Source of the DNA: Melastoma dodecandrum
Lineage: Eukaryota > Streptophyta > Magnoliopsida > Myrtales > Melastomataceae
NCBI GenBank assembly: GCA_029817715.1
Contig: JARUPY010000602.1
Span: forward strand, 17,501-81,500
Direction of reading: 5' to 3'
DNA: 64,000 bases
In this document: piece after piece, positions 1 to 62,341 of the stretch
Position numbering within the stretch: position 1 is the first letter of the stretch
Layout: each line of letters starts with the position of its first letter
Translations under genes and position numbers: made by a program
The notes under the pieces: generated by a model
What the model saw: only the letters and a program-made list of their open reading frames with translations
What the model was told of the DNA's origin: nothing
Databases searched by the model: none

Positions 1-80
1 CGTTACCCACTCCCTTGTTCTCCTTTGGAAGCAAATAATCTAATGGGAAATCAGGTCAATACCTGCATAGATGGTGGAGC

Positions 81-1839
81 TTACCACTCCATCAGTTGCT
101 TGCTACCATTTTGTCGTGGCAATGTACCTTTGCACACGGGTAAAAGATCCTCATCCCCACTTAGGTTCCTCCCACTGACAACATCTCTCAAAGATAGATC
201 CACCTCCCCGATCTCAACTGCTTCACAAACATGTCGGGTAAGGCTTAATCCAGAGTATAGATTATGTGCGGTTACCACCAAATGAAATAACTGCCCCGAT
301 GCTCACACTTCAATGTTGTCAACTTTCTGCCTGATTCAATCCCCGTCAGATCCCAAGAGGTCATCTCCCAAAATGTCTCCCACAATCGGGAGAGCTGAAA
401 CGGATGCCAAGAGAGGGGATATACATTACACTATCAAGAATAGATGCCTGTTTGAAGCCTGCTTACCATTCATAGATCATCGAAGAAGTAAAACAGATTG
501 TATTGTACACGTAAAATTCCCAAGAAGTGTGGGGGAAGCCAAAAGCTACATTTGCAAGCTGCAAGCCAGATTATTATTTTTTTAGGGTAAGCTTTTGATG
601 ATTAGATGGTTCATATGAAATAAGTGCTATCAATGAATTTTCTCTTGGTAGGATTGTAATATGGAACGTGTCTGAACGACAATACAAGCCAATCATATGA
701 TTTTCAAATTGTTGAAACGTGCAACATGTTCTGTCAATTTTCTAAAAGAATCTTGCCGATACTTTTAACTGTTTAACAAGTCAAGTTGCTAGGAAGGTAA
801 GAGAAAAATCATAATATCTATCCTGCTCAGCCGATTTTTCAAAAGTTATCTTGTTACTGCTGCTGAAGCTAACGAGATCAATGAGATGACTTTTCTGGTT
901 AAAACATCGCCCCTGGTTCAGAATCCAAGATCGAAACTAGGAAACTCGATGTGCATTTCTGGATCAGGTTTGACTGGTCCAAAAGTGCTCACTTCACCAG
1001 AATGGCTAAGATGATGACTTGGTGTTGATGCTCTGGGAACAGATTGGCTGCCTCGAGCATCGGATTCATTGATATAAAAATGCTGCAAAATAATTATTAT
1101 ATCCCTAGCATATGAAATTCAGGAAGAAAATTATATATGGCAGTCCTAATAGAGAAAATCAAAAAATCAAAAGGCAGATCTTATTAAAGAAAGGACCGGC
1201 CCAGATTACCGCCACCTGATTCCTTTTACACCCCACCCAAATGGGTCTAATTATTTATGCGTCTAGAAGTTTCAAGAGAGATGAGGACCCTTAGGTTATC
1301 TGAGATAGGATCATCATAGTGGCAACTTGCCAGAGAGGTGAATTTGAGATGCATTTCACTATTTACAGACCAGTTCAATGTTCTAGAGCAATCCTCTAAA
1401 CAAAACAATAGAAAAGATTGTCAAGGTTTTCAACCTGTAAGTTTGGTCGTAATTGACTTTCAGGGTATTCAACTGGTGCTACAATTAAAACAAAGATGAG
1501 GCTTATGTGAGCTTATATAATATCATGATTTGATCCATACGACGGGAAAATGTCTAGTGTTATAAACTAAAGAATAGCGTTGCAACAAATAGCGTTGAAT
1601 AAGCTCAGAGATTTTAAAGGCCGTACCAAATTCAGAAGTACAGAGGTCAACAATCTCTAAGGGATTGGCTTCGTTTGGGACTGTTTATGAGCCATTGTCT
1701 GAAGAATCTGTCATGGGATTTTCCAGATTATGTAGCTTGTTTACTGTAAAGGCAGTCATTCCTTTGCTTGCATCAGAAGATGGAGAGACACCATTCTCCT
1801 CAGAACATGGTTTGCGTAAAATGGATAAGATTTGATAGG
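81..1839 (-). pseudogene. Exon remnants of an unidentified spliced gene
   Basis: I do not recognise this gene. On the minus strand at least five open blocks follow plausible acceptor sites (pyrimidine tract plus AG): about 1839-1562, 1395-1247, 1082-918, 558-462 and 394-81. The last block is one reading frame ending in QNGSKQLMEW and a stop, but it contains two internal stops. The 1839-1562 block also has an internal stop, after DSSDNGS. The 1082-918 block contains the gene-like serine-rich stretch SQSVPRASTPSHH. The same stops occur in the right arm. Composition and exon-like spacing suggest a decayed nuclear gene; intron boundaries are inferred. Confidence 0.4.
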
Positions 1840-2498
1840 CTGAAAACAAAGGGCAATGCGGATTTTAGCATAACTTCAAGGGCTCTTTCAAAATAGATGA
1901 GAAAGTTTTTCAAGTATCACAATAAATCAAAAATAAAATCCAACAAACAGTTGAGCATTCATCAAGTATAATGGCAAGAAGATCTCAATAGCATGGCCTG
2001 AGATTGGCATATCATGACAAGGAGAAAATATTGTCATTGAATTTATGACCAGCAAATTTATTATATGCATTCAATGTCAACAACTGGAGCTTTGAAATAT
2101 AAGGAAAAAGTTACCCACTTGCAATACATCCACTGCAATATAAAGATTTCCTATAAATGAATTTTGCCAATAAGCGGTGTTTATTAAGACTTGATTGTCA
2201 TGCAAAAAATTAATCTGTCAAACTTGGACCTACCATCCCTCAAGTCTTCCGCATTGAGAATCTCGTGGTCTGCTCAGCTTCCATGACAATGGGTTTAGGG
2301 TAGAGTGCTTGAGCTATTTACTGCTCATTACATTTAGTTTACAATCCAAAATTACATTTTGCTAGCTTAAGTCATCGATGATACCCAACAAATAAAAATC
2401 CAGTCTTGTTCCTCAACAACTCAACCAACAATAACTTATTCACGAAGAAAAAACTGTAAAGGTGCCTTGCTTGGATCAGGGACGTCGCTGGGATTCAC
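1840..2498. other. AT-rich intergenic DNA
   Basis: This stretch separates the unidentified exons from the pectinesterase piece. I see no open frame longer than the local background, no structured RNA and no recognisable repeat. Confidence 0.5.
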
Positions 2499-3245
2499 TC
2501 ATGATATGACCTCTTCATCTCCCATACACTCATCAGCCATACACCTGTCTTTATGTAGATTATGTAGCGAGATGCACCGCTTTGATGTTGCAGTTATCGC
2601 CTCATTGATTGTCTTGTAATTTCCTGAGCCATCCTGTGCAACCACTATATTTTCTTGCGAAGCTGGCAATGAAGCCTGAAGGAGCTTCTGGTCGCCAGGC
2701 TTCAACCATGTTGGGAGCCTGCCAGAGTATTCAGCCGAGAGACTATACGGGGCATAGTTCAAAGCCAAAGTGTTGCTGATCAACTTCGAAACATTATTGG
2801 ACATCATGGGGAAAACATAGTCGGCCACACCGAGGTCCGCGAACCCCGCATGGCATGTCTCGAGGTTGGTTAGTGCAGTGCTGAGCCACGTCTGGGCGTC
2901 CATTTGTGTGCATTGGAGACCGACTGTATGGTTAAACCTCAGGATGGTTTCGTCGTAGAGCCTGAGGCAATCGTACCATGCGGCCTTCTCATTCTCGTCA
3001 CGGCACTAGGAGCCTAGGGAGTGGGTGTGATATCGAGCAAGACTGGCTCGGTCCAGGGCCAGGCGGATGGAGAGTGCGATGAAGTCAGGCTTTTGGGCAA
3101 TGGAAGCGTTGAGACTGAGGTGGCTAGACAGGTAATACAGGCAGGGTTGCGGGTAGGGAGTGTTGTCGCACCATGATTTGAGATCATGTTGTTGGGAGTA
3201 AGCCAGAATGGTGCGGATGAGAATAATACTACCAGTATGAATCAT
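2499..3245 (-). pseudogene. Pectin methylesterase, truncated (PMEI domain plus start of catalytic domain)
   Basis: Type-I pectin methylesterases are cell-wall enzymes that demethylate homogalacturonan; an N-terminal inhibitor-like (PMEI) domain precedes the catalytic domain. Translation from 3245 gives a short hydrophobic leader, then the PMEI hallmark WCDNTPYPQPC, the helical region with LETCHAGF, and the start of the catalytic domain (IVVAQDGSGNYKTINEAI). Lesions seen: an in-frame TAG after HSLGS, with the same frame continuing CRDENEKAAW; a frameshift just after the GNYKTI motif (RYIIYIKTGV reads in another frame); and no catalytic core. Both arms share these lesions, so the gene was dead before the arms separated. 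Family call firm; non-functional. Confidence 0.88.
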
Positions 3246-3333
3246 GATACGTTTGCAAAATAATTTTGATATGAAATGAAGTATTTCTGGAATGATGGGA
3301 TGAGTTGTGGATATGAGCAGGGGGGGTTATGGG

Positions 3334-3341
3334 TTTATATA
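3334..3341 (-). promoter_or_regulatory. Putative TATA box of the pectinesterase remnant
   Basis: TATATAAA on the minus strand lies about 90 bp upstream of the pectinesterase ATG at 3245, a usual plant promoter distance. It is probably the relic promoter of the dead gene. Confidence 0.5.
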
Positions 3342-3344
3342 ATA

Positions 3345-4893
3345 CGCGAGAATTGGGTGTAAGATAATCTGAGATGGGTAAGTTTTAGAATTGACAAATC
3401 CTATGGGTGCTATTACTGATAATAATGGGATGTTGTCTGCTAAACATGCAGCTGCCGTTGACTGGAAAGCCAAACCAATGGATAACACAAAAAGACTTTT
3501 AAAGAGAGAAGAAAACAAAACTATGTGCACTACGTCTAATGTTTGAAAAAGCGTTGTGCATGTAGTGTCCATGCAAGCATGCATGCAGGCATATTCCCTT
3601 GACCCACGTAACATAATGTTCATATAACACAAGGTGATTGAAACCCATCGTCCATTTTGCGACATTCGAAATTCAACATATGTACAGGGGAGGTACCAGT
3701 TCTTAGAGGAAATCGTTAAGAGGCTGGCTGATCTAAAACTAATAACTTGTCCAAGGGGAAATCGTGTTAGTAATAATCTTGTGGCCACCAACAACTCTCA
3801 GTGCACCACATTATTTATCTCATCTCAAAGAATAATATCAATCTCTCTGTTTTTTTTTACCCAGTGCATAGGGGAAGAAATATATTTCCGTCATCCCTAA
3901 CGATTCATATTAAAAATATACAAAGAATCTTATTCTAAAAATAAGATAAAAAAAACATTATAGGATGATGAGATTACACAATGGGATGAATAATTGACAC
4001 GGAATAGTGAAGAAGGTGATAGGGGCAAGTAATTGACAAAAATGTTTATCCTATTAAAACAAGACAGATAAAACTGTACCATAGATAGACCGTACATCAA
4101 ATTGATTTTTGACCAACTTCTATATATTCAATAACATTGATTGGACTCTCGGGGGTCAACAATTTAAAATATTTGTGTCATCAGGGAAAAATGGAGGGAG
4201 GATGAAGACATTCAAATATTAAGTGTGATCGTTTTGTGTTATGTGTCTCGTGGAGGAATGAAATTACTAAGTAAAATTCAAAAAGAGGATAAACATTGGT
4301 AAGGTCAGCCCCTTTTTTCAATAACTAAAAATGGATGGGATGAACTAAATAAAGGAAGTTAGAAAGCTTTTTTTTCTACGTTCTTCTTAGAAGTTAGAAA
4401 TTAGGTAAAACACTTTTCTACACACTTGACATTTCTTGAGTTGTTTCCTAATTCTTCAAGTGTTATGCTTTTTTCAACCTGCAAATGGTAAACAAAACAC
4501 TGCCACAAAATCAATCCAATCCACCCTAAAGTGTTACTAAGAAAACGCAAACAACATCTCCCCACGGCAAACTAACCTCCAAATGACTAATAACATTAGC
4601 ACTCCTCTTCTCACGTTTACGGATAGTAAACCATGCATTAGCAGTTAGTTTAGTTACTCATACGCATGATATGATCAATTACACTTCTTTGAAAATGTAA
4701 GCAATATCCCTCTCTCTTGATTATATTAAACAAAAAACGGAATTTAGCAATGAAGAATAGAATAATAAATAAATACTTACCAAGGGTATTCATTTATGTG
4801 TATTTACAATCACTAGTGTAAATACATTAACATTAACATTACATCAGTGTTAAAAGAAAAGGGTTAATGAGAAGTTTACCCTCACCCTCACCC
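3345..4893. other. AT-rich intergenic DNA
   Basis: A 1.5-kb stretch with short A/T runs and no supported gene. A 155-codon frame on the minus strand (3794-3327) has no recognisable domain and overlaps the pectinesterase promoter, so it is not called. Confidence 0.5.
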
Positions 4894-5614
4894 TTAGCAG
4901 TATCCACATGCCAATCCAGTTCTCGCAACATCAACCAATGAACTTATGATGTCCGCTGCGCATTGTCTCGCCCGGAATATACTTGCCACTGACATCTGTC
5001 TCACGAATCTAGTGAAACGCACCCAGTTCCCGTACTCAAAACATCCTCTTATCCATCCTCACAACATTGAAGGATGTTGAATGCTTCCCCAATCCATCCC
5101 AAGAGTAGTACTTCGACATCCTCACAATCCTCTCAAACGAAGCTTCTTGGAAATTTGTCACCGTGCTCTGACCCTCCACCAGTACATCACAGAGCCTAGC
5201 CGCAAAAAACAGCGGCTTGAAAATCGCTTCGGCCGCATGCATCTGTATGGTTTCTCTATCTAACAGCTCAATCCATGTGCAGCACAGCCCAAATCCATAC
5301 TGACCGAGCAATCGCGTGATCCACAGGAAATTAACCGTCAACAGCGTGTTAAGATAGCCTGAAGTCAATTCATGAGGAGAGTCATAGGAGTAAGGCAAGG
5401 CTTCCAACTTTGCTGACATGCAAACCTCTACTCCTCTAAATATTGTCTCGGCTTCCCTAAATATTCTCTCTCCATGGAAAATCAGGCTTCTGTAGTACCA
5501 GTCTAGGAAAAACTCCCTATACTGATCGTTCTAAGAGCCGACATCACTCTCGAAAAACTCAGCGCCCCCTGGTATCCCACGCTCTTGTGCACAAGTATTT
5601 AGTGTTGCCAGCAT
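4894..5614 (-). pseudogene. Beta-amylase-like (GH14) C-terminal fragment
   Basis: Beta-amylases release maltose from non-reducing ends of alpha-glucans. Translating minus from 5614 gives a frame starting MLATLNTCAQERGIPGGAEF, then FESDVGS, an in-frame TAG, then NDQYREFFLDWYYRSLIFHG, which resembles the GH14 segment FFLxWYSxxLIxHGDR. SYDSPHELTSGYLNT corresponds to the family's HxAELTAGYYN region. GLCCTWIELLDRE and VEGQSTVTNFQEASFERI follow, as at the C-terminal end of the barrel. After a stop at 5036 another frame continues YGNWVRFTRFVRQMS, a typical C-terminal motif, to a TAA at 4894. The N-terminal half with its catalytic Glu is absent. Both arms carry the same stops. It may derive from a catalytically inactive paralogue; not determined. 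Confidence 0.62.
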
Positions 5615-5883
5615 ATACCGAACAAAAGTTCAGTCACAGAAAAATTAATCCAATTTTAAAAGAACAACTGCCCAAGAAACGACAAAAATAACGGACTTAT
5701 CGTGGACTCTGTCATGACTGCTCTACCTTGTCATAGCAATGAAATTATACAGGTTCACTCGAAATCTGTGATTTCATCTGGGATGGGGACAAAGGTTATG
5801 TCAGTTCTCCCTCAGGGCCCATTCCAATTTGAATTCCCCGGAGAAACGGCAAGCATCAATCCAAAGGGGGAGTTAAGTTTCAA

Positions 5884-5957
5884 ACTAAACCCTAATCCCT
5901 AAAACCCTAAACCCTAAACCCTGAATCCTGAATCCTGAATCTTAAACCCTAAACAAA
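5884..5957 (+). repeat. Telomere-like array T1 (CCCTAAA variants)
   Basis: About ten CCCTAAA/CCCTGAATCC-type units on the plus strand. It ends directly at a LINE ORF2 fragment (5962), so the boundary is also a junction between unrelated sequences. Confidence 0.9.
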
Positions 5958-5961
5958 TAAG

Positions 5962-6276
5962 CTTGACGGGTTGTCAACGCGAGTTGGTGAGGCTAGGTCG
6001 CATCTTGAGGAGATCCAGTCTGAGCTGTTGGCCCAAGAATCGCATGGAGAAGTGTCGCTTGTAGAGAGTGCTGCCGCTGCCAGATTCAGTTACCTGGCCT
6101 GGCTGGAGGAAAGCATGCTGCGCCAGAAGACGCGTGTTACCTCGGGAATCGGAACACGGCCTATTTTTTTCACGATGAATCGTCGTCATAATAGGAATGT
6201 GGTTTTGCCGTTGACGAGGGATGATGGTGTAGTGTTGTCTGATCCGACGAAAGTGAGTGATGAGACGAATGGGTAG
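5962..6276 (+). mobile_element. LINE-A family ORF2 fragment (linker between endonuclease and RT)
   Basis: The translation (STRVGEARSHLEEIQSELLA, then LEESMLRQK and LTRDDGVVLSDPT) matches the LINE-A ORF2 segment encoded at about 23755-24050. It lacks the segment encoding RWLQLGDRN and carries a frame-preserving deletion there. It is truncated on both sides: telomere-like DNA lies upstream, a different 3' tail downstream. Non-coding relic. Confidence 0.88.
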
Positions 6277-6375
6277 AACAGCCTTGATAGTTTGATGACT
6301 GATTTAGGATGATGCTAAAGCCTTTATGTAACAGCTTGACTGTTCTTTTCTATTAATGAATTTTAACTACAAAAA
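6277..6375 (+). mobile_element. 3' tail of a 5'-truncated retroelement ending in poly-A
   Basis: The segment ends with TATTAATGAATTTTAACT followed by an A-run. Almost the same end (ATTAATGAAATTTAACT plus A-run) occurs at 9991-10015, so both are 3' ends of one retroelement family distinct from LINE-A, whose tail ends ATTACTTATC(A)n. Confidence 0.6.
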
Positions 6376-6409
6376 AATCATAAACCGTATAAAGAATTGG
6401 TTTAATTTG

Positions 6410-7230
6410 GCTTGGTAAGAGCCGTGGGCTCTTTTCAATTAAGGAAGCTTGGGATCTACTAGGGACAAAAAGGCTGAAGGTAGACTGGAGTGAGTGGGTT
6501 TGGAATAAAGAAATTCCTCCGAGGTATTCTTTCCTAGTCTAGCTGGCAGCTAAAGGGAAGCTACGTATGGCTCAATTCTGGTACCAGAAGGGTCTGTGGG
6601 CTTCTACAGCATGTGTATTTTTCCATCGTGCTGTAGAAACAAGGGATTATTTATTCTTCCATTGTGATTTCGTCAGGAAGATCTGGGATCACCTTGGTTG
6701 GATGCTGAGATATAATTTATTTTTTATAAGTAATACTCTATAACCCAAAAAAAAAGTTTGTATAAAGATCACGGGGACATACCCCTGGAAATCAAAACCG
6801 CAACACCATATCTACGTACACCAAAATATGTAACGAAATAAAGAAATCACACTACGTCCAAGGTAGCGAGGAAAGAATAAACGAAGCAAGTGTCCTAGGA
6901 GGTAGCAAACGCTCGCCAACCCTCCGCTTGTTCCGCTCCATCCAAAGGTAATAAACGCATCCTCCCAACATCTGGCCAAAAGATGACCGCCTCCGAAGTG
7001 TAACTCCAGCCGGCGAGAACAGAGTTACAATTTCTTTAGTACCACATGGGATGACCTAGTGCGGCTGCAATCTTCCATAATTGGAGTGAGAGGTGCAAGT
7101 AGGAACGCCAATGTGGTTGTAGTATTGCTCTATCATATATGGATAGAGCGATGTAAACGACGGGCAAGTGGTGCGATGTCTTCTGCAGGAAGTGTAGCAG
7201 TGCAAGCATTTAGGATGTTGTGATGGGTGA
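6410..7230 (+). mobile_element. LINE ORF2 C-terminal fragment (zf-RVT), interrupted by a nested LINE
   Basis: The frame beginning GRGLFSIKEAWDLLG, then VWNKEIPPRYSFLV and ETRDYLFFHCDFVRKIWDHL, is the zf-RVT domain found at the C-terminus of plant LINE ORF2. After an inserted opposite-strand element (about 6720-7030) the domain resumes at 7041 and ends with VVVVLLYHIWIERCKRRAS. This corresponds to the CVYYLWIERNKRR end of LINE-A, but the sequence is clearly another family. It carries an in-frame stop (SFLV*LAAKG). Confidence 0.8.
6720..7030 (-). mobile_element. Nested 5'-truncated LINE-A family copy (3' end)
   Basis: On the minus strand this aligns with the last 300 bp of LINE-A: the ORF2 end (YYLWMERNKRR), the stop, the GTACGTAGATATGGTGTTG segment, the hairpin GGGGTATGTCCCC, GTGATCTTTATACA, and the ATTACTTAT(A)n tail. 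It splits the zf-RVT fragment around it. A short AATTT motif on each side is a possible target-site duplication. Confidence 0.85.
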
Positions 7231-9344
7231 CTTGGTAAGTAATGTGAAGCAGGCCCAACAAGGTAAGAAACATGGGGTAGGCCACTAAGCCCAATGAAAA
7301 TCACCGGGGACATGTTTGTGCATGAAAGCATGATATGGGGCCATCTAAATTTGGGGAAGAGGAAGGCTCGCCTTGAGGCCATAAATCAAGAGGGGAGGAA
7401 GGGTTGCTCTAGCTAGGGTACAAGGTCACCCAAACAGATGCGGGGGGATCCAGGTCAGGGGTAGGGCTTTGAAGTTGGAGGGTCGTCACCAACCAGAAGG
7501 CAGCGCAATGCAAACGGAAACGAGGATGGTGATCACCAGGAGACAAGCACCGCGAAGATCGGGGGAGAACTGGCAAACTCAGCCGCCATCCCAAGCTGTC
7601 ATCCAGGTAATCTCGTGCGACTCAGAAAGTAGTAAAGAATTAAGGCCATATGGAATGTCGGCCGGGAAAGGGAAATGCCATGATCCTCGAGGGGATGGGT
7701 GGGGCTTTAAAATGTGACTCAAGACTTGGTTTTGATTCTGTAACCACGGAATATGATTCGGACTGCTTTGCGTGTTGGTTAATATCTATGGATGAAGACC
7801 CGAGGGGAGCTCAGAAAGCAGCAAAGGAGGACCCATATGTTTGTTACGGCTTTGGTGAAGGCGATTGTGAAAGTCTAGACATGGGTTTAGAGATGAATGG
7901 AGGTGGGGTGCTCTGTATAGGAGAGGAGGCGCTGATCGTGTACTAAATTGGAGGCAAGGGGCAGACCCAAAGGGCCGAATGAGTGGGATGAAACGAATAA
8001 TTACATCCGTTGGGATGATCTGGAGATGTAGGACGATGGAGAGGGCAAACTTTTGAAGATGATATTGCTACTTTATACGCGTATAGGGGAAACGGTGGCC
8101 AAAGGCAACATGAAAGAGTTTCGGAGCGTCAGGATGAGCCTAGGGAAACTGAATGAGTTATGGTGGCCATTAGCAAAGTTAAAATATGGGCCCCAGTTGG
8201 TCTTCCTCTATTCCTTCAACAGGGCTCCAGGCGAGGATAGGTTTAACTTGGAGGATGAACCCAAGGCATGGAAAGAATGGTGGGCTATATTGGAAGATTA
8301 ACGCCTGGGGCGGTACAATCTTAGACCTAAGCCGCTTGATAGGAAACAAGCAAGACTGAGACGTAGGCACCTTAGAAGGCTAGCTGCGGAGAACAAGGAA
8401 TTCCTCCAACCCAACACGTTGCAGGTGCGCTTCAACAGGGAGGACTCTCCGCCCCACTCACCCGAGGAATTCCTGCAGGTGCACCTTATTAGGGAGGATT
8501 CTCCACTCCACCTGCCTGAAAGCCCTGACAAACTCATCAATCAGCCCAAGGTGACAAAACCAGCACGGAGGGTGAGGTTCATGCTTGATCATGAACAACC
8601 CAGAAGATGTGTGGCCACTTTGACGGATCGTCTTCATCTTGCAGAGGAAGAGGCTTAAATCAAGCTATGGGAGCTTATACAGGAAATTCTGCAGTGCATT
8701 TGATAGTTCGGGTTGCCAAACCGGAGTGGAGGCTTTATCCCTAGGGTGGCTGCTACTTGCGGATAAGCTACAGCGATCCATGTATGAGAAGATGACGCGT
8801 ATAGCTTAAATGAAACAAATTTTGCTCGTAAGGATGGCTGATCAGCCTAGCAAGGAAAGGTCGTCCACACTACGGCAAGGAGGGGAGGCAAATGGGAAGA
8901 AGAACGTAGGGGGGAATGCAACGGAACGAAGGGAACAACCAAGGGGAAGTGGATGGAAAGAGCACTAGTGAGCAAAACCAGCGTACTACAGGGAGGTCTG
9001 ATGTAAGGGTAATGGCGCTATGGGCATGACTATTGAGGACTGGGAGGATCCGGCATTTTGGAATTTTACGAACACCTACCTGGTAGCAGAAGCAAGACGT
9101 TGGCTTCGGCGGGGGTGAGCTGCAATAACAATTCCCTGGAGTCAAGCCCTCAGGATGAGGATGCTACCGAAACAAACTCTGAGGAGTGGTCCCTGGAGAA
9201 AAACTCGGCTGATTATATAAGGATTGGAGCACCTTGTTGATGAGGTCCTTGGCGGAATCGAGCAGATCAGTAGGAAGATCGGCAAGGAAAGGCCCAGGAA
9301 GCCGATTTCACTGGTAATTTGTGTACATAATTAGCATGCCTGCA
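7231..9344 (+). other. Unresolved, probably degenerate retroelement DNA
   Basis: I recognise no domain. Short plus-strand frames occur at 7469-7717, 7650-7946, 8053-8301 and 8419-8658, in different phases as in a decayed coding sequence. They are acidic and Gly-rich in the middle and Pro/His/Ser-rich near 8420-8540. An imperfect repeat of about 60 bp (8396-8460 and 8461-8521) encodes two related EFLQ...REDSP peptides. Retroelement fragments on both sides, and a poly-A-tailed end downstream, make an old LINE ORF1 region the likeliest origin, but this is inference. Confidence 0.4.
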
Positions 9345-9621
9345 AACATTTGGGACTGGTTATTGGTTTTGTAGCCTTGTGATTTTTTACATGGGTTGTA
9401 ATTCTGGGCATAGGCTTAGGGGTGGCCCATTTAAAGGAATGGCTTAAGGCGTACTTAATAGCGGAGATGGGCCTGGATTAGCTCGGCCGACATTTCTTTT
9501 TAGACAGGTTCTAGGTTAGTGTTTTCATAGGCTAGCACTATCTCAAGGCTGCTTACGGAATGCCTAGAGAATTATGTAACTATTTTTGAGCTCTCAAATC
9601 AATTTACCTTAACAAAAAATC
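9345..9621 (+). mobile_element. Retroelement 3' tail with poly-A
   Basis: Non-coding sequence ending ATTTACCTTAAC plus an A-run. The same terminal motif precedes the A-run at 27905, so both are ends of one element family. The A-run passes directly into telomere-like repeats. Confidence 0.55.
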
Positions 9622-9674
9622 CCCATAAACCCTAAAACATAAGCCCTAAACCCTAAAAACCCTAAACCCTAAAT
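9622..9674 (+). repeat. Telomere-like array T2
   Basis: Six or so CCCTAAA-type units, three of them perfect, directly downstream of a retroelement poly-A tail and directly upstream of another retroelement fragment. Confidence 0.85.
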
Positions 9675-10016
9675 GCTCTGCTATTCCTGGCCAACCGAGA
9701 GATGATGCACGGCGAAGAGAGAGCTGGTGAGGACCCTAATGAGGTGCCCAGCTCGACCACCTACTCTCCTCAGGGCCCACAGGATCGACCTAGCTAGAGC
9801 GAATTCTAGTCTGCATTGGAATGCCTACCACCTGGGTCTTTATGGATTTCAGATGTTGTAGTATTTATTTTGGAACTCCTCTATGACTATGCTCATTTGT
9901 GTTAGGACTAAATGAGTAGGGTAGCTATGATGGTCTGACGAATACTGTTATATGACCTTTTAGGGCCATTTCTATAATAGTCCGACTTTTTTATTAATGA
10001 AATTTAACTAAAAAAA
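9675..10016 (+). mobile_element. Second retroelement 3' tail with poly-A
   Basis: Non-coding; ends ATTAATGAAATTTAACT plus A-run, the same terminus as at 6350-6375. It starts immediately at telomere-like array T2 and ends immediately at T3. Confidence 0.55.
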
Positions 10017-10106
10017 CCGCTAAATCCTAAATCTCAAACCCTTAAGCCGAATCCCGAAACCCTAAACCCGAACTCTGAAACCCCAAACCCCAAACTCTAA
10101 ACCGGA
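10017..10106 (+). repeat. Telomere-like array T3 (degenerate)
   Basis: About twelve 7-8-bp units with CCCTAAA, CCCGAAC and CCCCAAA variants. It lies between a poly-A tail and a LINE-A-like fragment. Confidence 0.8.
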
Positions 10107-10107
10107 A

Positions 10108-10450
10108 AATCAACGCTTTTTATCTATTAATTTCGCCTGCTGGAGCGACATTTCGTCAGAATCGACCTTTCATTTGGATGTTTGTTGGATGCGTCTATTA
10201 CCTGTGGACGAAGCGCAATAAGCGTCGACTTGGAGAGCGTTTGTTGCCTCCTAAGACATTGCCCACATTTGTTCTTGCATCATTACCATGGGCGTAGATT
10301 GATTTACTTTATTTTGATGGTAGTTACGTACATGTGGTATACGTTAACATTGTGTTAGTTAATTTCCAAGGGTAAGCCCATGTGATTTTTGTACAGACAT
10401 TTTATGGGTTATACATTATTGTGATAAGGTGTTATCCTAATTTAAACTCG
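10108..10450 (+). mobile_element. LINE-A-like 3' fragment F4
   Basis: Encodes the ORF2 C-terminal end (CVYYLWTKRNKRR, then RLLPPKTLPTF) and the non-coding 3' end with a shortened hairpin GGGTAAGCCC, then TGTGATTTTTGTACAGAC. It is more diverged from LINE-A than fragment F5 and 5'-truncated at the telomere-like array. Confidence 0.85.
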
Positions 10451-10504
10451 AAAGAGGAATTTTAGGGGAGAACAAAAACGGAATAGCCTTGTTTAATATC
10501 GTGG

Positions 10505-11537: not shown

Positions 11538-11562
11538 AAAAAAACCCTAAATCTTAAACTTA
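11538..11562 (+). repeat. Telomere-like patch T4 at an RFT1 breakpoint
   Basis: AAACCCTAAATC and degenerate continuation between the LINE poly-A tail and the point where RFT1 exon 6 homology stops (11563). Confidence 0.65.
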
Positions 11563-21115: not shown

Positions 21116-21132
21116 TCGGGTCGGGCTTCAGA

Positions 21133-42157: not shown

Positions 42158-42168
42158 AAATCAACAAA

Positions 42169-51837: not shown

Positions 51838-51891
51838 CCACGATATTAAACAAGGCTATTCCGTTTTTGTTCTCCCCTAAAATTCCTCTTT

Positions 51892-52234
51892 CGAGTTTAA
51901 ATTAGGATAACACCTTATCACAATAATGTATAACCCATAAAATGTCTGTACAAAAATCACATGGGCTTACCCTTGGAAATTAACTAACACAATGTTAACG
52001 TATACCACATGTACGTAACTACCATCAAAATAAAGTAAATCAATCTACGCCCATGGTAATGATGCAAGAACAAATGTGGGCAATGTCTTAGGAGGCAACA
52101 AACGCTCTCCAAGTCGACGCTTATTGCGCTTCGTCCACAGGTAATAGACGCATCCAACAAACATCCAAATGAAAGGTCGATTCTGACGAAATGTCGCTCC
52201 AGCAGGCGAAATTAATAGATAAAAAGCGTTGATT
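51892..52234 (-). mobile_element. LINE-A-like fragment F4, right-arm copy
   Basis: Mirror of 10108-10450, including the shortened hairpin. Confidence 0.85.
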
Positions 52235-52235
52235 T

Positions 52236-52325
52236 TCCGGTTTAGAGTTTGGGGTTTGGGGTTTCAGAGTTCGGGTTTAGGGTTTCGGGATTCGGCTTAA
52301 GGGTTTGAGATTTAGGATTTAGCGG
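52236..52325 (-). repeat. Telomere-like array T3, right-arm copy
   Basis: Degenerate TTTAGGG/TTCGGGT units, mirror of 10017-10106. Confidence 0.8.
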
Positions 52326-52667
52326 TTTTTTTAGTTAAATTTCATTAATAAAAAAGTCGGACTATTATAGAAATGGCCCTAAAAGGTCATATAACAGTAT
52401 TCGTCAGACCATCATAGCTACCCTACTCATTTAGTCCTAACACAAATGAGCATAGTCATAGAGGAGTTCCAAAATAAATACTACAACATCTGAAATCCAT
52501 AAAGACCCAGGTGGTAGGCATTCCAATGCAGACTAGAATTCGCTCTAGCTAGGTCGATCCTGTGGGCCCTGAGGAGAGTAGGTGGTCGAGCTGGGCACCT
52601 CATTAGGGTCCTCACCAGCTCTCTCTTCGCCGTGCATCATCTCTCGGTTGGCCAGGAATAGCAGAGC
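52326..52667 (-). mobile_element. Retroelement 3' tail, right-arm copy
   Basis: Mirror of 9675-10016. Confidence 0.55.
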
Positions 52668-52720
52668 ATTTAGGGTTTAGGGTTTTTAGGGTTTAGGGCT
52701 TATGTTTTAGGGTTTATGGG
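52668..52720 (-). repeat. Telomere-like array T2, right-arm copy
   Basis: Mirror of 9622-9674; runs directly from a poly-T (poly-A on minus) end. Confidence 0.85.
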
Positions 52721-52997
52721 GATTTTTTGTTAAGGTAAATTGATTTGAGAGCTCAAAAATAGTTACATAATTCTCTAGGCATTCCGTAAGCAGCCTTGAG
52801 ATAGTGCTAGCCTATGAAAACACTAACCTAGAACCTGTCTAAAAAGAAATGTCGGCCGAGCTAATCCAGGCCCATCTCCGCTATTAAGTACGCCTTAAGC
52901 CATTCCTTTAAATGGGCCACCCCTAAGCCTATGCCCAGAATTACAACCCATGTAAAAAATCACAAGGCTACAAAACCAATAACCAGTCCCAAATGTT
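52721..52997 (-). mobile_element. Retroelement 3' tail (TTACCTTAAC type), right-arm copy
   Basis: Mirror of 9345-9621. Confidence 0.55.
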
Positions 52998-55111
52998 TGC
53001 AGGCATGCTAATTATGTACACAAATTACCAGTGAAATCGGCTTCCTGGGCCTTTCCTTGCCGATCTTCCTACTGATCTGCTCGATTCCGCCAAGGACCTC
53101 ATCAACAAGGTGCTCCAATCCTTATATAATCAGCCGAGTTTTTCTCCAGGGACCACTCCTCAGAGTTTGTTTCGGTAGCATCCTCATCCTGAGGGCTTGA
53201 CTCCAGGGAATTGTTATTGCAGCTCACCCCCGCCGAAGCCAACGTCTTGCTTCTGCTACCAGGTAGGTGTTCGTAAAATTCCAAAATGCCGGATCCTCCC
53301 AGTCCTCAATAGTCATGCCCATAGCGCCATTACCCTTACATCAGACCTCCCTGTAGTACGCTGGTTTTGCTCACTAGTGCTCTTTCCATCCACTTCCCCT
53401 TGGTTGTTCCCTTCGTTCCGTTGCATTCCCCCCTACGTTCTTCTTCCCATTTGCCTCCCCTCCTTGCCGTAGTGTGGACGACCTTTCCTTGCTAGGCTGA
53501 TCAGCCATCCTTACGAGCAAAATTTGTTTCATTTAAGCTATACGCGTCATCTTCTCATACATGGATCGCTGTAGCTTATCCGCAAGTAGCAGCCACCCTA
53601 GGGATAAAGCCTCCACTCCGGTTTGGCAACCCGAACTATCAAATGCACTGCAGAATTTCCTGTATAAGCTCCCATAGCTTGATTTAAGCCTCTTCCTCTG
53701 CAAGATGAAGACGATCCGTCAAAGTGGCCACACATCTTCTGGGTTGTTCATGATCAAGCATGAACCTCACCCTCCGTGCTGGTTTTGTCACCTTGGGCTG
53801 ATTGATGAGTTTGTCAGGGCTTTCAGGCAGGTGGAGTGGAGAATCCTCCCTAATAAGGTGCACCTGCAGGAATTCCTCGGGTGAGTGGGGCGGAGAGTCC
53901 TCCCTGTTGAAGCGCACCTGCAACGTGTTGGGTTGGAGGAATTCCTTGTTCTCCGCAGCTAGCCTTCTAAGGTGCCTACGTCTCAGTCTTGCTTGTTTCC
54001 TATCAAGCGGCTTAGGTCTAAGATTGTACCGCCCCAGGCGTTAATCTTCCAATATAGCCCACCATTCTTTCCATGCCTTGGGTTCATCCTCCAAGTTAAA
54101 CCTATCCTCGCCTGGAGCCCTGTTGAAGGAATAGAGGAAGACCAACTGGGGCCCATATTTTAACTTTGCTAATGGCCACCATAACTCATTCAGTTTCCCT
54201 AGGCTCATCCTGACGCTCCGAAACTCTTTCATGTTGCCTTTGGCCACCGTTTCCCCTATACGCGTATAAAGTAGCAATATCATCTTCAAAAGTTTGCCCT
54301 CTCCATCGTCCTACATCTCCAGATCATCCCAACGGATGTAATTATTCGTTTCATCCCACTCATTCGGCCCTTTGGGTCTGCCCCTTGCCTCCAATTTAGT
54401 ACACGATCAGCGCCTCCTCTCCTATACAGAGCACCCCACCTCCATTCATCTCTAAACCCATGTCTAGACTTTCACAATCGCCTTCACCAAAGCCGTAACA
54501 AACATATGGGTCCTCCTTTGCTGCTTTCTGAGCTCCCCTCGGGTCTTCATCCATAGATATTAACCAACACGCAAAGCAGTCCGAATCATATTCCGTGGTT
54601 ACAGAATCAAAACCAAGTCTTGAGTCACATTTTAAAGCCCCACCCATCCCCTCGAGGATCATGGCATTTCCCTTTCCCGGCCGACATTCCATATGGCCTT
54701 AATTCTTTACTACTTTCTGAGTCGCACGAGATTACCTGGATGACAGCTTGGGATGGCGGCTGAGTTTGCCAGTTCTCCCCCGATCTTCGCGGTGCTTGTC
54801 TCCTGGTGATCACCATCCTCGTTTCCGTTTGCATTGCGCTGCCTTCTGGTTGGTGACGACCCTCCAACTTCAAAGCCCTACCCCTGACCTGGATCCCCCC
54901 GCATCTGTTTGGGTGACCTTGTACCCTAGCAAGAGCAACCCTTCCTCCCCTCTTGATTTATGGCCTCAAGGCGAGCCTTCCTCTTCCCCAAATTTAGATG
55001 GCCCCATATCATGCTTTCATGCACAAACATGTCCCCGGTGATTTTCATTGGGCTTAGTGGCCTACCCCATGTTTCTTACCTTGTTGGGCCTGCTTCACAT
55101 TACTTACCAAG
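52998..55111 (-). other. Unresolved, probably degenerate retroelement DNA, right-arm copy
   Basis: Mirror of 7231-9344; the short frames translate identically, so the arms are very close here. No domain recognised. Confidence 0.4.
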
Positions 55112-55932
55112 TCACCCATCACAACATCCTAAATGCTTGCACTGCTACACTTCCTGCAGAAGACATCGCACCACTTGCCCGTCGTTTACATCGCTCTATC
55201 CATATATGATAGAGCAATACTACAACCACATTGGCGTTCCTACTTGCACCTCTCACTCCAATTATGGAAGATTGCAGCCGCACTAGGTCATCCCATGTGG
55301 TACTAAAGAAATTGTAACTCTGTTCTCGCCGGCTGGAGTTACACTTCGGAGGCGGTCATCTTTTGGCCAGATGTTGGGAGGATGCGTTTATTACCTTTGG
55401 ATGGAGCGGAACAAGCGGAGGGTTGGCGAGCGTTTGCTACCTCCTAGGACACTTGCTTCGTTTATTCTTTCCTCGCTACCTTGGACGTAGTGTGATTTCT
55501 TTATTTCGTTACATATTTTGGTGTACGTAGATATGGTGTTGCGGTTTTGATTTCCAGGGGTATGTCCCCGTGATCTTTATACAAACTTTTTTTTTGGGTT
55601 ATAGAGTATTACTTATAAAAAATAAATTATATCTCAGCATCCAACCAAGGTGATCCCAGATCTTCCTGACGAAATCACAATGGAAGAATAAATAATCCCT
55701 TGTTTCTACAGCACGATGGAAAAATACACATGCTGTAGAAGCCCACAGACCCTTCTGGTACCAGAATTGAGCCATACGTAGCTTCCCTTTAGCTGCCAGC
55801 TAGACTAGGAAAGAATACCTCGGAGGAATTTCTTTATTCCAAACCCACTCACTCCAGTCTACCTTCAGCCTTTTTGTCCCTAGTAGATCCCAAGCTTCCT
55901 TAATTGAAAAGAGCCCACGGCTCTTACCAAGC
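55112..55932 (-). mobile_element. zf-RVT LINE fragment, right-arm copy, with nested element
   Basis: Mirror of 6410-7230, split by the opposite-strand LINE-A copy at 55312-55622. Confidence 0.8.
55312..55622 (+). mobile_element. Nested 5'-truncated LINE-A copy, right arm
   Basis: Plus-strand mirror of 6720-7030: starts near CTCTGTTCTCGCCGGCTGG, ends with the hairpin GGGGTATGTCCCC and a TTACTTAT(A)n tail. Confidence 0.85.
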
Positions 55933-55966
55933 CAAATTAAACCAATTCTTTATACGGTTTATGATT

Positions 55967-56065
55967 TTTTTGTAGTTAAAATTCATTAATAGAAAAGAAC
56001 AGTCAAGCTGTTACATAAAGGCTTTAGCATCATCCTAAATCAGTCATCAAACTATCAAGGCTGTT
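55967..56065 (-). mobile_element. Retroelement 3' tail with poly-A, right-arm copy
   Basis: Mirror of 6277-6375. Confidence 0.6.
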
Positions 56066-56380
56066 CTACCCATTCGTCTCATCACTCACTTTCGTCGGAT
56101 CAGACAACACTACACCATCATCCCTCGTCAACGGCAAAACCACATTCCTATTATGACGACGATTCATCGTGAAAAAAATAGGCCGTGTTCCGATTCCCGA
56201 GGTAACACGCGTCTTCTGGCGCAGCATGCTTTCCTCCAGCCAGGCCAGGTAACTGAATCTGGCAGCGGCAGCACTCTCTACAAGCGACACTTCTCCATGC
56301 GATTCTTGGGCCAACAGCTCAGACTGGATCTCCTCAAGATGCGACCTAGCCTCACCAACTCGCGTTGACAACCCGTCAAG
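56066..56380 (-). mobile_element. LINE-A ORF2 linker fragment, right-arm copy
   Basis: Mirror of 5962-6276; identical translation. Confidence 0.88.
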
Positions 56381-56384
56381 CTTA

Positions 56385-56458
56385 TTTGTTTAGGGTTTAA
56401 GATTCAGGATTCAGGATTCAGGGTTTAGGGTTTAGGGTTTTAGGGATTAGGGTTTAGT
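56385..56458 (-). repeat. Telomere-like array T1, right-arm copy
   Basis: Mirror of 5884-5957. Confidence 0.9.
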
Positions 56459-56727
56459 TTGAAACTTAACTCCCCCTTTGGATTGATGCTTGCCGTTTCT
56501 CCGGGGAATTCAAATTGGAATGGGCCCTGAGGGAGAACTGACATAACCTTTGTCCCCATCCCAGATGAAATCACAGATTTCGAGTGAACCTGTATAATTT
56601 CATTGCTATGACAAGGTAGAGCAGTCATGACAGAGTCCACGATAAGTCCGTTATTTTTGTCGTTTCTTGGGCAGTTGTTCTTTTAAAATTGGATTAATTT
56701 TTCTGTGACTGAACTTTTGTTCGGTAT

Positions 56728-57448
56728 ATGCTGGCAACACTAAATACTTGTGCACAAGAGCGTGGGATACCAGGGGGCGCTGAGTTTTTCGAGAGTGATG
56801 TCGGCTCTTAGAACGATCAGTATAGGGAGTTTTTCCTAGACTGGTACTACAGAAGCCTGATTTTCCATGGAGAGAGAATATTTAGGGAAGCCGAGACAAT
56901 ATTTAGAGGAGTAGAGGTTTGCATGTCAGCAAAGTTGGAAGCCTTGCCTTACTCCTATGACTCTCCTCATGAATTGACTTCAGGCTATCTTAACACGCTG
57001 TTGACGGTTAATTTCCTGTGGATCACGCGATTGCTCGGTCAGTATGGATTTGGGCTGTGCTGCACATGGATTGAGCTGTTAGATAGAGAAACCATACAGA
57101 TGCATGCGGCCGAAGCGATTTTCAAGCCGCTGTTTTTTGCGGCTAGGCTCTGTGATGTACTGGTGGAGGGTCAGAGCACGGTGACAAATTTCCAAGAAGC
57201 TTCGTTTGAGAGGATTGTGAGGATGTCGAAGTACTACTCTTGGGATGGATTGGGGAAGCATTCAACATCCTTCAATGTTGTGAGGATGGATAAGAGGATG
57301 TTTTGAGTACGGGAACTGGGTGCGTTTCACTAGATTCGTGAGACAGATGTCAGTGGCAAGTATATTCCGGGCGAGACAATGCGCAGCGGACATCATAAGT
57401 TCATTGGTTGATGTTGCGAGAACTGGATTGGCATGTGGATACTGCTAA
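56728..57448 (+). pseudogene. Beta-amylase-like C-terminal fragment, right-arm copy
   Basis: Plus-strand mirror of 4894-5614; same in-frame stop after FESDVGS and same frame break before YGNWVRFTRFVRQMS. Confidence 0.62.
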
Positions 57449-58997
57449 GGGTGAGGGTGAGGGTAAACTTCTCATTAACCCTTTTCTTTTAACACTGATG
57501 TAATGTTAATGTTAATGTATTTACACTAGTGATTGTAAATACACATAAATGAATACCCTTGGTAAGTATTTATTTATTATTCTATTCTTCATTGCTAAAT
57601 TCCGTTTTTTGTTTAATATAATCAAGAGAGAGGGATATTGCTTACATTTTCAAAGAAGTGTAATTGATCATATCATGCGTATGAGTAACTAAACTAACTG
57701 CTAATGCATGGTTTACTATCCGTAAACGTGAGAAGAGGAGTGCTAATGTTATTAGTCATTTGGAGGTTAGTTTGCCGTGGGGAGATGTTGTTTGCGTTTT
57801 CTTAGTAACACTTTAGGGTGGATTGGATTGATTTTGTGGCAGTGTTTTGTTTACCATTTGCAGGTTGAAAAAAGCATAACACTTGAAGAATTAGGAAACA
57901 ACTCAAGAAATGTCAAGTGTGTAGAAAAGTGTTTTACCTAATTTCTAACTTCTAAGAAGAACGTAGAAAAAAAAGCTTTCTAACTTCCTTTATTTAGTTC
58001 ATCCCATCCATTTTTAGTTATTGAAAAAAGGGGCTGACCTTACCAATGTTTATCCTCTTTTTGAATTTTACTTAGTAATTTCATTCCTCCACGAGACACA
58101 TAACACAAAACGATCACACTTAATATTTGAATGTCTTCATCCTCCCTCCATTTTTCCCTGATGACACAAATATTTTAAATTGTTGACCCCCGAGAGTCCA
58201 ATCAATGTTATTGAATATATAGAAGTTGGTCAAAAATCAATTTGATGTACGGTCTATCTATGGTACAGTTTTATCTGTCTTGTTTTAATAGGATAAACAT
58301 TTTTGTCAATTACTTGCCCCTATCACCTTCTTCACTATTCCGTGTCAATTATTCATCCCATTGTGTAATCTCATCATCCTATAATGTTTTTTTTATCTTA
58401 TTTTTAGAATAAGATTCTTTGTATATTTTTAATATGAATCGTTAGGGATGACGGAAATATATTTCTTCCCCTATGCACTGGGTAAAAAAAAACAGAGAGA
58501 TTGATATTATTCTTTGAGATGAGATAAATAATGTGGTGCACTGAGAGTTGTTGGTGGCCACAAGATTATTACTAACACGATTTCCCCTTGGACAAGTTAT
58601 TAGTTTTAGATCAGCCAGCCTCTTAACGATTTCCTCTAAGAACTGGTACCTCCCCTGTACATATGTTGAATTTCGAATGTCGCAAAATGGACGATGGGTT
58701 TCAATCACCTTGTGTTATATGAACATTATGTTACGTGGGTCAAGGGAATATGCCTGCATGCATGCTTGCATGGACACTACATGCACAACGCTTTTTCAAA
58801 CATTAGACGTAGTGCACATAGTTTTGTTTTCTTCTCTCTTTAAAAGTCTTTTTGTGTTATCCATTGGTTTGGCTTTCCAGTCAACGGCAGCTGCATGTTT
58901 AGCAGACAACATCCCATTATTATCAGTAATAGCACCCATAGGATTTGTCAATTCTAAAACTTACCCATCTCAGATTATCTTACACCCAATTCTCGCG
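57449..58997. other. AT-rich intergenic DNA, right arm
   Basis: Mirror of 3345-4893; no supported gene. Confidence 0.5.
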
Positions 58998-59000
58998 TAT

Positions 59001-59008
59001 TATATAAA
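59001..59008 (+). promoter_or_regulatory. Putative TATA box of the pectinesterase remnant, right arm
   Basis: TATATAAA about 90 bp before the ATG at 59097. Confidence 0.5.
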
Positions 59009-59096
59009 CCCATAACCCCCCCTGCTCATATCCACAACTCATCCCATCATTCCAGAAATACTTCATTTCATATCAAAATTATTTTGCAAACGTATC

Positions 59097-59843
59097 ATGA
59101 TTCATACTGGTAGTATTATTCTCATCCGCACCATTCTGGCTTACTCCCAACAACATGATCTCAAATCATGGTGCGACAACACTCCCTACCCGCAACCCTG
59201 CCTGTATTACCTGTCTAGCCACCTCAGTCTCAACGCTTCCATTGCCCAAAAGCCTGACTTCATCGCACTCTCCATCCGCCTGGCCCTGGACCGAGCCAGT
59301 CTTGCTCGATATCACACCCACTCCCTAGGCTCCTAGTGCCGTGACGAGAATGAGAAGGCCGCATGGTACGATTGCCTCAGGCTCTACGACGAAACCATCC
59401 TGAGGTTTAACCATACAGTCGGTCTCCAATGCACACAAATGGACGCCCAGACGTGGCTCAGCACTGCACTAACCAACCTCGAGACATGCCATGCGGGGTT
59501 CGCGGACCTCGGTGTGGCCGACTATGTTTTCCCCATGATGTCCAATAATGTTTCGAAGTTGATCAGCAACACTTTGGCTTTGAACTATGCCCCGTATAGT
59601 CTCTCGGCTGAATACTCTGGCAGGCTCCCAACATGGTTGAAGCCTGGCGACCAGAAGCTCCTTCAGGCTTCATTGCCAGCTTCGCAAGAAAATATAGTGG
59701 TTGCACAGGATGGCTCAGGAAATTACAAGACAATCAATGAGGCGATAACTGCAACATCAAAGCGGTGCATCTCGCTACATAATCTACATAAAGACAGGTG
59801 TATGGCTGATGAGTGTATGGGAGATGAAGAGGTCGTATCATGA
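59097..59843 (+). pseudogene. Pectin methylesterase remnant, right-arm copy
   Basis: Mirror of 2499-3245 with the same TAG and frameshift; one difference near the end (EEVVS for EEVIS). Confidence 0.88.
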
Positions 59844-60502
59844 GTGAATCCCAGCGACGTCCCTGATCCAAGCAAGGCACCTTTACAGTTTTTTCTTCGT
59901 GAATAAGTTATTGTTGGTTGAGTTGTTGAGGAACAAGACTGGATTTTTATTTGTTGGGTATCATCGATGACTTAAGCTAGCAAAATGTAATTTTGGATTG
60001 TAAACTAAATGTAATGAGCAGTAAATAGCTCAAGCACTCTACCCTAAACCCATTGTCATGGAAGCTGAGCAGACCACGAGATTCTCAATGCGGAAGACTT
60101 GAGGGATGGTAGGTCCAAGTTTGACAGATTAATTTTTTGCATGACAATCAAGTCTTAATAAACACCGCTTATTGGCAAAATTCATTTATAGGAAATCTTT
60201 ATATTGCAGTGGATGTATTGCAAGTGGGTAACTTTTTCCTTATATTTCAAAGCTCCAGTTGTTGACATTGAATGCATATAATAAATTTGCTGGTCATAAA
60301 TTCAATGACAATATTTTCTCCTTGTCATGATATGCCAATCTCAGGCCATGCTATTGAGATCTTCTTGCCATTATACTTGATGAATGCTCAACTGTTTGTT
60401 GGATTTTATTTTTGATTTATTGTGATACTTGAAAAACTTTCTCATCTATTTTGAAAGAGCCCTTGAAGTTATGCTAAAATCCGCATTGCCCTTTGTTTTC
60501 AG
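59844..60502. other. AT-rich intergenic DNA, right arm
   Basis: Mirror of 1840-2498; nothing recognised. Confidence 0.5.
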
Positions 60503-62261
60503 CCTATCAAATCTTATCCATTTTACGCAAACCATGTTCTGAGGAGAATGGTGTCTCTCCATCTTCTGATGCAAGCAAAGGAATGACTGCCTTTACAGTA
60601 AACAAGCTACATAATCTGGAAAATCCCATGACAGATTCTTCAGACAATGGCTCATAAACAGTCCCAAACGAAGCCAATCCCTTAGAGATTGTTGACCTCT
60701 GTACTTCTGAATTTGGTACGGCCTTTAAAATCTCTGAGCTTATTCAACGCTATTTGTTGCAACGCTATTCTTTAGTTTATAACACTAGACATTTTCCCGT
60801 CGTATGGATCAAATCATGATATTATATAAGCTCACATAAGCCTCATCTTTGTTTTAATTGTAGCACCAGTTGAATACCCTGAAAGTCAATTACGACCAAA
60901 CTTACAGGTTGAAAACCTTGACAATCTTTTCTATTGTTTTGTTTAGAGGATTGCTCTAGAACATTGAACTGGTCTGTAAATAGTGAAATGCATCTCAAAT
61001 TCACCTCTCTGGCAAGTTGCCACTATGATGATCCTATCTCAGATAACCTAAGGGTCCTCATCTCTCTTGAAACTTCTAGACGCATAAATAATTAGACCCA
61101 TTTGGGTGGGGTGTAAAAGGAATCAAGTGGCGGTAATCTGGGCCGGTCCTTTCTTTAATAAGATCTGCCTTTTGATTTTTTGATTTTCTCTATTAGGACT
61201 GCCATATATAATTTTCTTCCTGAATTTCATATGCTAGGGATATAATAATTATTTTGCAGCATTTTTATATCAATGAATCCGATGCTCGAGGCAGCCAATC
61301 TGTTCCCAGAGCATCAACACCAAGTCATCATCTTAGCCATTCTGGTGAAGTGAGCACCTTTGGACCAGTCAAACCTGATCCAGAAATGCACATCGAGTTT
61401 CCTAGTTTCGATCTTGGATTCTGAACCAGGGGCGATGTTTTAACCAGAAAAGTCATCTCATTGATCTCGTTAGCTTCAGCAGCAGTAACAAGATAACTTT
61501 TGAAAAATCGGCTGAGCAGGATAGATATTATGATTTTTCTCTTACCTTCCTAGCAACTTGACTTGTTAAACAGTTAAAAGTATCGGCAAGATTCTTTTAG
61601 AAAATTGACAGAACATGTTGCACGTTTCAACAATTTGAAAATCATATGATTGGCTTGTATTGTCGTTCAGACACGTTCCATATTACAATCCTACCAAGAG
61701 AAAATTCATTGATAGCACTTATTTCATATGAACCATCTAATCATCAAAAGCTTACCCTAAAAAAATAATAATCTGGCTTGCAGCTTGCAAATGTAGCTTT
61801 TGGCTTCCCCCACACTTCTTGGGAATTTTACGTGTACAATACAATCTGTTTTACTTCTTCGATGATCTATGAATGGTAAGCAGGCTTCAAACAGGCATCT
61901 ATTCTTGATAGTGTAATGTATATCCCCTCTCTTGGCATCCGTTTCAGCTCTCCCGATTGTGGGAGACATTTTGGGAGATGACCTCTTGGGATCTGACGGG
62001 GATTGAATCAGGCAGAAAGTTGACAACATTGAAGTGTGAGCATCGGGGCAGTTATTTCATTTGGTGGTAACCGCACATAATCTATACTCTGGATTAAGCC
62101 TTACCCGACATGTTTGTGAAGCAGTTGAGATCGGGGAGGTGGATCTATCTTTGAGAGATGTTGTCAGTGGGAGGAACCTAAGTGGGGATGAGGATCTTTT
62201 ACCCGTGTGCAAAGGTACATTGCCACGACAAAATGGTAGCAAGCAACTGATGGAGTGGTAA
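60503..62261 (+). pseudogene. Exon remnants of an unidentified spliced gene, right-arm copy
   Basis: Plus-strand mirror of 81-1839. Acceptors precede 60503, 60947, 61260, 61784 and 61948. The internal stops are the same as in the left arm. Further exons may lie beyond 62261: the frame at 62306-62400 (TREWVTRLVVKQRESG) is open but unconfirmed. Confidence 0.4.
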
Positions 62262-62341
62262 GCTCCACCATCTATGCAGGTATTGACCTGATTTCCCATT
62301 AGATTATTTGCTTCCAAAGGAGAACAAGGGAGTGGGTAACG

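Follow-up and report, generated by a model that had tools for sequence, protein, structure and literature searches.

A palindrome of at least 62 kb with a 27-nt spacer in the Melastoma dodecandrum assembly and its possible origin by breakage and fusion of sister chromatids

The palindrome and the contents of its arms

The stretch of Melastoma dodecandrum DNA analysed here (the window; 64,000 nucleotides of contig JARUPY010000602.1, assembly GCA_029817715.1) was found to contain a long palindrome. The contig, referred to as C134, is 3,645,317 bp long; the window corresponds to C134:17501-81500 and the axis of the palindrome lies near the contig start, at about C134:50,000. The palindrome is present in the assembled sequence, and its length alone excludes a chance origin. 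When the window was compared with itself, inverted matches were found between 1-17685 and 62341-44621 (99.7%) and between 20458-22979 and 44622-42081 (98.1%), followed by the segment 22973-42032, which matches its own inverse at 99.3%. The mirror match reaches the first base of the window and the left arm extends past the window edge, so that the palindrome measures 62 kb or more. The contig tip at C134:4845-5000, a noisy sequence, also matches C134:79842-79992, immediately beyond the mirrored stretch.

The self-comparison and the arm alignment bear out an earlier note on this DNA, which had described everything from 1 to about 32490 as recurring inverted to 62341. The spacer, given there as 29 bp, was measured as 27 nt (32492-32518). 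The same note had stated that long frames keep an unchanged translation in both arms; the frames do recur, but ORF2 of one element, LINE2, reads through 1200 aa in the right arm and is disrupted by a 55-bp deletion in the left. From the outside to the axis, each arm was found to contain an S module, copy 1 of a repeat named AB, copy 2 of AB split by LINE2, and a second element, LINE3, as follows.

1..32491, + strand: left arm, extending outside the window
32519..62341, - strand: right arm, mirror of 32491-1
1..11558, unstranded: S module of the left arm, common to contigs C233 and C561
50784..62341, unstranded: S module of the right arm
2499..3326, - strand: degraded pectinesterase fragment, left arm
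59016..59843, + strand: pectinesterase fragment, right arm, placed by mirror
11559..15103, unstranded: AB copy 1, left arm, from self-comparison
47239..50783, unstranded: AB copy 1, right arm, from self-comparison
17686..20457, unstranded: 2.77 kb present in the left arm only, comprising the A half of AB copy 2, a target-site duplicate and the 5′ end of LINE2; the right-arm gap lies at 44620/44621
26583..27459 (left) and 37545-38421 (right), unstranded: B half of AB copy 2
20390..26582, + strand: LINE2 of the left arm, a plant L1 inserted in AB copy 2 with target-site duplication AATTTCTTAGGGTA; 55-bp deletion at 22975
38422..44620, - strand: LINE2 of the right arm, ORF2 with RVT_1 and zf-RVT
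27951..32491, + strand: LINE3 of the left arm, a plant L1 cut by the axis shortly before the zf-RVT region
32511..37059, - strand: LINE3 of the right arm, cut 8 bp further on

The L1-type elements contained DUF4283, endonuclease, RVT_1 and zf-RVT domains; one of the two Exo_endo_phos matches was just above the curated cut-off and the other below it. Among the 107 related proteins listed, many of them nameless, the named ones were nearly all from flowering plants, with one weak match to Naegleria. The target-site duplication of LINE2 was found at 20376-20389 and 26583-26596, and LINE3 was found to be flanked on both sides by CCCTAAA-type repeats (window 27915-27950; C134:169805). LINE2 and LINE3 are thus two L1 elements in telomere-like targets. 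Copy 2 of AB starts at 17713 in the left arm. The 2.77-kb stretch was at first read as an insertion in the left arm, a reading that was dropped because the AB repeat and a third copy of the segment, described below, show a deletion in the right arm instead.

The joint at the axis

The whole assembly (372,947,930 bases in 607 contigs) was searched for further copies of the arm components, which may be incomplete; the resulting repeat counts are lower bounds, and collapsed copies would be invisible. Three copies of LINE3 were found at 99% identity or more, namely those of the left arm, the right arm and a segment named copy P, all on C134; the next best copy reached 73% (40 of 50 candidates scored). 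Copy P is a third AB-LINE3 segment at C134:172846-178732. It does not contain LINE2 and therefore displays the empty, uninterrupted LINE2 site, and its LINE3 continues beyond the position of the axis into a reading that resembles zf-RVT by eye. Two length differences, of 10 bp at 32405-32414 and of about 24 bp at 30184-30207, distinguish the LINE3 of the arms from that of copy P. The LINE3 tail, taken as 2.4 kb of copy P from around the axis onward, was found as one full copy, followed by a next best of 71% (40 of 41 candidates scored). Because the tail was found once, on copy P, no contig carrying the left or the right arm onward natively was found in the search with this tail, where collapsed copies would again escape notice.

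At the break, copy P reads ...GACAAGAAGGCA TTCTATAA CGAGCTGCAG..., and the left arm follows it as far as GGCA whereas the right arm follows it as far as TTCTATAA. The ends of the two arms therefore lie 8 bp apart on one native sequence, and the break shared by both arms that breakage and fusion would leave was found with this 8-bp offset. Between the arms, the following two parts make up the spacer.

32492..32510, + strand: 19-nt filler AGAAATTTTCCAATGTGTT between the arm ends
32511..32518, - strand: 8 nt of native LINE3, retained by the broken end of the right arm only (copy P, C134:172846-172853)

Positions 32447-32457, which lie 34 nt from the left end, recur as their reverse complement in the first 11 nt of the filler, and the match extends to 14 nt with the last three arm bases added. 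In sets of 20000 random 19-mers of like composition, 5 reached a match of 11 nt within 60 bp of the ends, 2 did so within 100 bp and 15 within 200 bp; within 1000 bp the count was 11 of 3000. The axis thus carries an end-joining scar in the form of a templated filler. From its letters, the filler is the product that would be expected from snap-back synthesis followed by end joining. The relevant part of PMC10923293 names fillers templated by the flanks as a hallmark of joining by polymerase theta in plants, and that of PMC4912351 gives snap-back as one mode of this enzyme; polymerase theta may accordingly be proposed as the maker of this filler.

Two other readings of the joint were considered and set aside. 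Adapter remains as the source of the filler were weighed informally, and for 11 of the 19 nt the local template is the better explanation. The turn was also read as the work of an inverted repeat, GGCA...TGCC, already in place before the event, which was rejected because copy P shows that TGCC is not native there.

Divergence between the arms

The alignment of the arms was found to contain 90 substitutions, a count from which 8 mismatches placed at the axis by the aligner were left out. The largest stretch found in the left arm only is 2,774 bp long and those found in the right arm only are 55 bp and 20 bp long; in addition, a TTTAGGG-type array differs by 36 bp between the arms, and there are a few indels of 1-3 bp. 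From the outside to the axis, the substitutions numbered 4 in 12,985 bp, 7 in 4,700, 50 in 6,125 (LINE2), 20 in 1,368 and 9 in 4,541 (LINE3), a spread that is uneven along the arms (chi-square p 1e-31). The divergence of LINE2 between the arms is 0.8%, partly in runs, whereas no difference was found in the innermost 1,497 bp, an outcome with a probability of 0.05 at the LINE3 rate.

In the S module, which forms the outer 11.6 kb, the arms differ at 4 of 11,560 sites (0.035%). Each arm differs from C233 and C561 at 116-125 sites and these two differ from each other at 75 (0.65%), giving a range of 0.65-1.08% for comparisons that involve the other copies. The divergence of S between the arms is therefore about 20 times below that between C233 and C561, which may be alleles. 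Of the four S differences, three are left-derived and one is right-derived. The contig tip, an inverted copy of part of the left arm, carries the left-arm base at all 3 of the 3 sites there that separate the arms, and its sharing of all three left-derived S bases shows that the arms come from two molecules, not from a single one that was read twice.

With copy P as the outgroup, the sites of B and LINE3 fell into 6 left-derived followed by 22 right-derived, that is, 2 runs, and none of 20000 shuffles gave as few; when the dense cluster at 27820-27887 was removed, 9 of 20000 did. In LINE2, polarised by one C561 copy, 19 left-derived and 20 right-derived sites were found in 15 runs. Left out of these lineage counts were gap columns, 10 LINE2 sites without an outgroup base, and one LINE2 and one LINE3 site at which all three sequences differ. 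From these patterns we read the arms as a probably young pair whose repeats would have been overwritten in patches; a similar picture would be given by mosaic haplotypes or by polishing with misplaced reads. No weight was given to the age suggested by S, since conversion would make the arms look young. The earlier note had taken the indels as what two haplotypes would show. Haplotypes do fit, but the indels and the excess of substitutions lie patchily in multi-copy repeats and fit ectopic conversion or polishing noise equally well.

Outside the palindrome, C233:7232600-7247393 and C561:12523-29950 were found to be colinear and 98.8% alike over 17.4 kb; they are possibly two alleles or paralogous segments. 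A telomere-like 7-mer satellite with units of about 1.7-2.3 kb was found to adjoin the S module on three contigs (C134:80354-87181; C561:50001-56200; C233 from about 7247391). The satellite was considered as a canonical chromosome end on C233, and this was dropped because the last 1.5 kb of C233 are LINE sequence without a telomere. The region C134:139000-200000 contained an array of AB-bearing repeat units, often of about 6 kb and 93-98% alike. At C134:105533-106228 and 89878-93604, a long frame resembling a MULE/FAR1-type transposase and frames resembling a Ty3-type retrotransposon were noted by eye. Among the best 120 of 667 matches of the pectinesterase fragment, the top one was from Melastoma candidum, at 85% identity with 66% of the query covered, and mainly other Myrtales at 59-66% came next. 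The window contained no plasmid match and no Rfam match at gathering score, and neither result bears on the origin of the palindrome.

Origin of the palindrome and its known relatives

The origin that we somewhat favour, on the evidence of the assembled sequence, is a real inverted duplication formed by breakage and fusion of sister chromatids. It is supported by the single break site, the templated filler, the lack of any onward contig among those searched, the near-identical S modules with private changes, the origin of the arms from two distinct molecules, and the uneven divergence with its patches by lineage. The chromosome would have broken within LINE3, with loss of the distal piece including the LINE3 tail. 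The sister ends, 8 bp apart as read from copy P, would then have undergone alternative end joining in the manner of polymerase theta: a 3′ end in GCA would have snapped back onto TGC 34 nt upstream, 11 nt would have been copied and released, and after 8 further nt the end would have been joined to the sister, which gives a palindrome with a 27-nt spacer. The dicentric chromosome might conceivably have broken again about 37-39 kb out, near the telomere-like satellite, and been capped; there the contig runs into period-7 arrays. Afterwards each arm appears to have gained its own deletions, and AB, LINE2 and LINE3 appear to have been overwritten in patches from other copies, whereas the outer 11.6 kb remained 99.97% identical. 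Read as a fusion, the palindrome codes for no function of its own and is a chromosome-repair scar that doubles a repeat-rich segment.

Several observations weigh against this origin, and most of them belong to its strongest rival, to which a real though lesser chance is given: a chimeric read would have turned at LINE3, the assembler would have joined two haplotypes or paralogues head to head, and the true chromosome would continue into the LINE3 tail. The palindrome lies at a contig end, a place where fold-back artefacts accumulate. C134:1-4844 is an inverted, noisy copy (92.7%) of C134:17501-22162 in the left arm, and against the right arm the first 5 kb contained 257 substitutions, 126 insertion runs and 2 deletion runs. 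Because these first 5 kb are a noisy fold-back of the left arm, fold-back reads did enter the contig, and the tip (C134:1-5000) bears the mark of one molecule read twice. At the axis, the sequence after the turn maps within 200 bp of the sequence before it, on the opposite strand, which is how a fold-back is defined in the portion of PMC12870357 that deals with it. The same portion puts fold-back reads at 0.55-0.6% of nanopore genomic reads, says that they tangle assembly graphs, and reports more than 11 bp unmatched at the turn in somewhat less than half of the artefacts, so that a 19-nt filler would not be rare among them. Palindromic chimeras in amplified libraries, according to the part of PMC6218980 concerned, made up 40-50% of reads in Arabidopsis samples. 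The identical inner 1.5 kb resembles the core of a chimeric read, and a palindrome with such inner arms and a 27-nt spacer should be unstable, which conflicts with the 0.8% divergence of LINE2; the runs in LINE2 by themselves are weakly clustered (1002 of 20000 shuffles). As to capping, no canonical TTTAGGG runs were found in C134:10001-12500 and no telomere was found after the S-adjoining satellite of C233 in the 1.5 kb examined, which contained LINE sequence instead. The low-complexity sequence of C134:10001-12500 has a period of 7, G/T-rich first and then TTTAAAG (89 occurrences), and a garbled switch was noted within the arrays at about C134:10960-11074, near the centre of a second fold-back. 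Nanopore base callers are described in part of PMC9414165 as garbling telomeres strand by strand, with human error motifs that differ from the motifs of C134; the arrays and the tip may represent a telomere that was garbled, with a fold-back read after it.

An artefact confined to a single molecule is nevertheless excluded at the axis, where private deletions of 2,774 bp and 55 bp and 90 substitutions separate the arms; arms that differ as two molecules would are what the join of two haplotypes or paralogues predicts. Such a join requires both native continuations to be absent or collapsed, with the LINE3 tail found only once, and a locally templated filler is unexpected from adapter or hairpin remains. 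If C561 and C233 are alleles, the 0.035% divergence of S is also far under theirs. On this ground two haplotypes were rejected as the sole cause, with identity by descent still able to account for the low value. Sister-chromatid joining and haplotype fold-back, both named as causes in the earlier note, are both possible, and the shared break site within 8 bp, the filler, the single tail and the S divergence shift the evidence towards the former.

Two further origins are together quite improbable: an old palindrome of the sex-chromosome type, kept alike by gene conversion between its arms, and an inverted duplication made by template switching (ODIRA, MMBIR). The very low divergence of S beside that of LINE2 is the pattern of partial homogenisation, and such palindromes exist in willow (PMC7023750, as far as its account of them goes). 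The spacer of willow W.P1, given there as 2.6 kb in the text and 3,586 bp in the table, is of kilobases as against 27 nt, and long-term conversion, which together with a kilobase spacer marks the sex-chromosome palindromes, is only suggested here. ODIRA begins at pre-existing short inverted repeats, according to the pertinent part of PMC10766186, and the 60 nt native at copy P, inspected by eye, contained no TGCC partner for the GGCA of the left end.

Within the favoured origin, a fuller account can be drawn: a natural, base-resolved scar of a chromosome end, in which polymerase theta joined the sister ends within a retrotransposon, the bridge was broken and healed in the telomere-like satellite, and ectopic conversion from the neighbouring repeat array then rewrote the repeats of the arms and left the single-copy part intact. 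Taken as a whole this account is rather unlikely. If the palindrome exists in the plant, both fusion breakpoints, the repair signature and the later decay would stand together in one place, and the question of how such a palindrome persists in plants would be opened; long palindromes whose spacer is very short are considered unstable and uncommon in natural genomes, as stated in the same part of PMC10766186. If it is an artefact, it would be a warning that fold-backs can join two polished and different arms. The third copy of the interrupted repeat would then be a means of reading the joint.

Among known systems, the palindrome compares best with the terminal inverted duplications that arise in breakage-fusion cycles. 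As in the breakage-fusion-bridge cycle, or the terminal inverted duplication with deletion, the locus was found to contain two inverted arms, one break and an end-joining scar at the axis, with the distal sequence not found and the contig end near; unlike it, the arms already bear private deletions and patches, and the case is known from assembled sequence alone. No plant case of breakage and fusion from long reads appeared by title in the literature surveyed, which is not evidence of absence. The long-read fold-back artefact, as characterised in the cited part of PMC12870357, shares the mirror turn, the contig-end position and the noisy fold-back in the same contig, whereas the arms of this palindrome, with their private deletions (2.77 kb and 55 bp) and real single-nucleotide differences, are not one molecule and the filler is locally templated. 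The willow palindromes W.P1 and W.P2 have arms more than 99% alike that are broken by private indels and retrotransposons, in the description available in PMC7023750, and differ in their kilobase spacers, in a gene set that has no counterpart here and in their sex linkage, for which none is known here. Inverted repeats of T-DNA occur in plants. The fillers at plant T-DNA, in the section of PMC10923293 on such joints, resemble the present one as templated filler of the polymerase-theta style between two ends, whereas both ends joined here belong to the native chromosome and extend over tens of kb.

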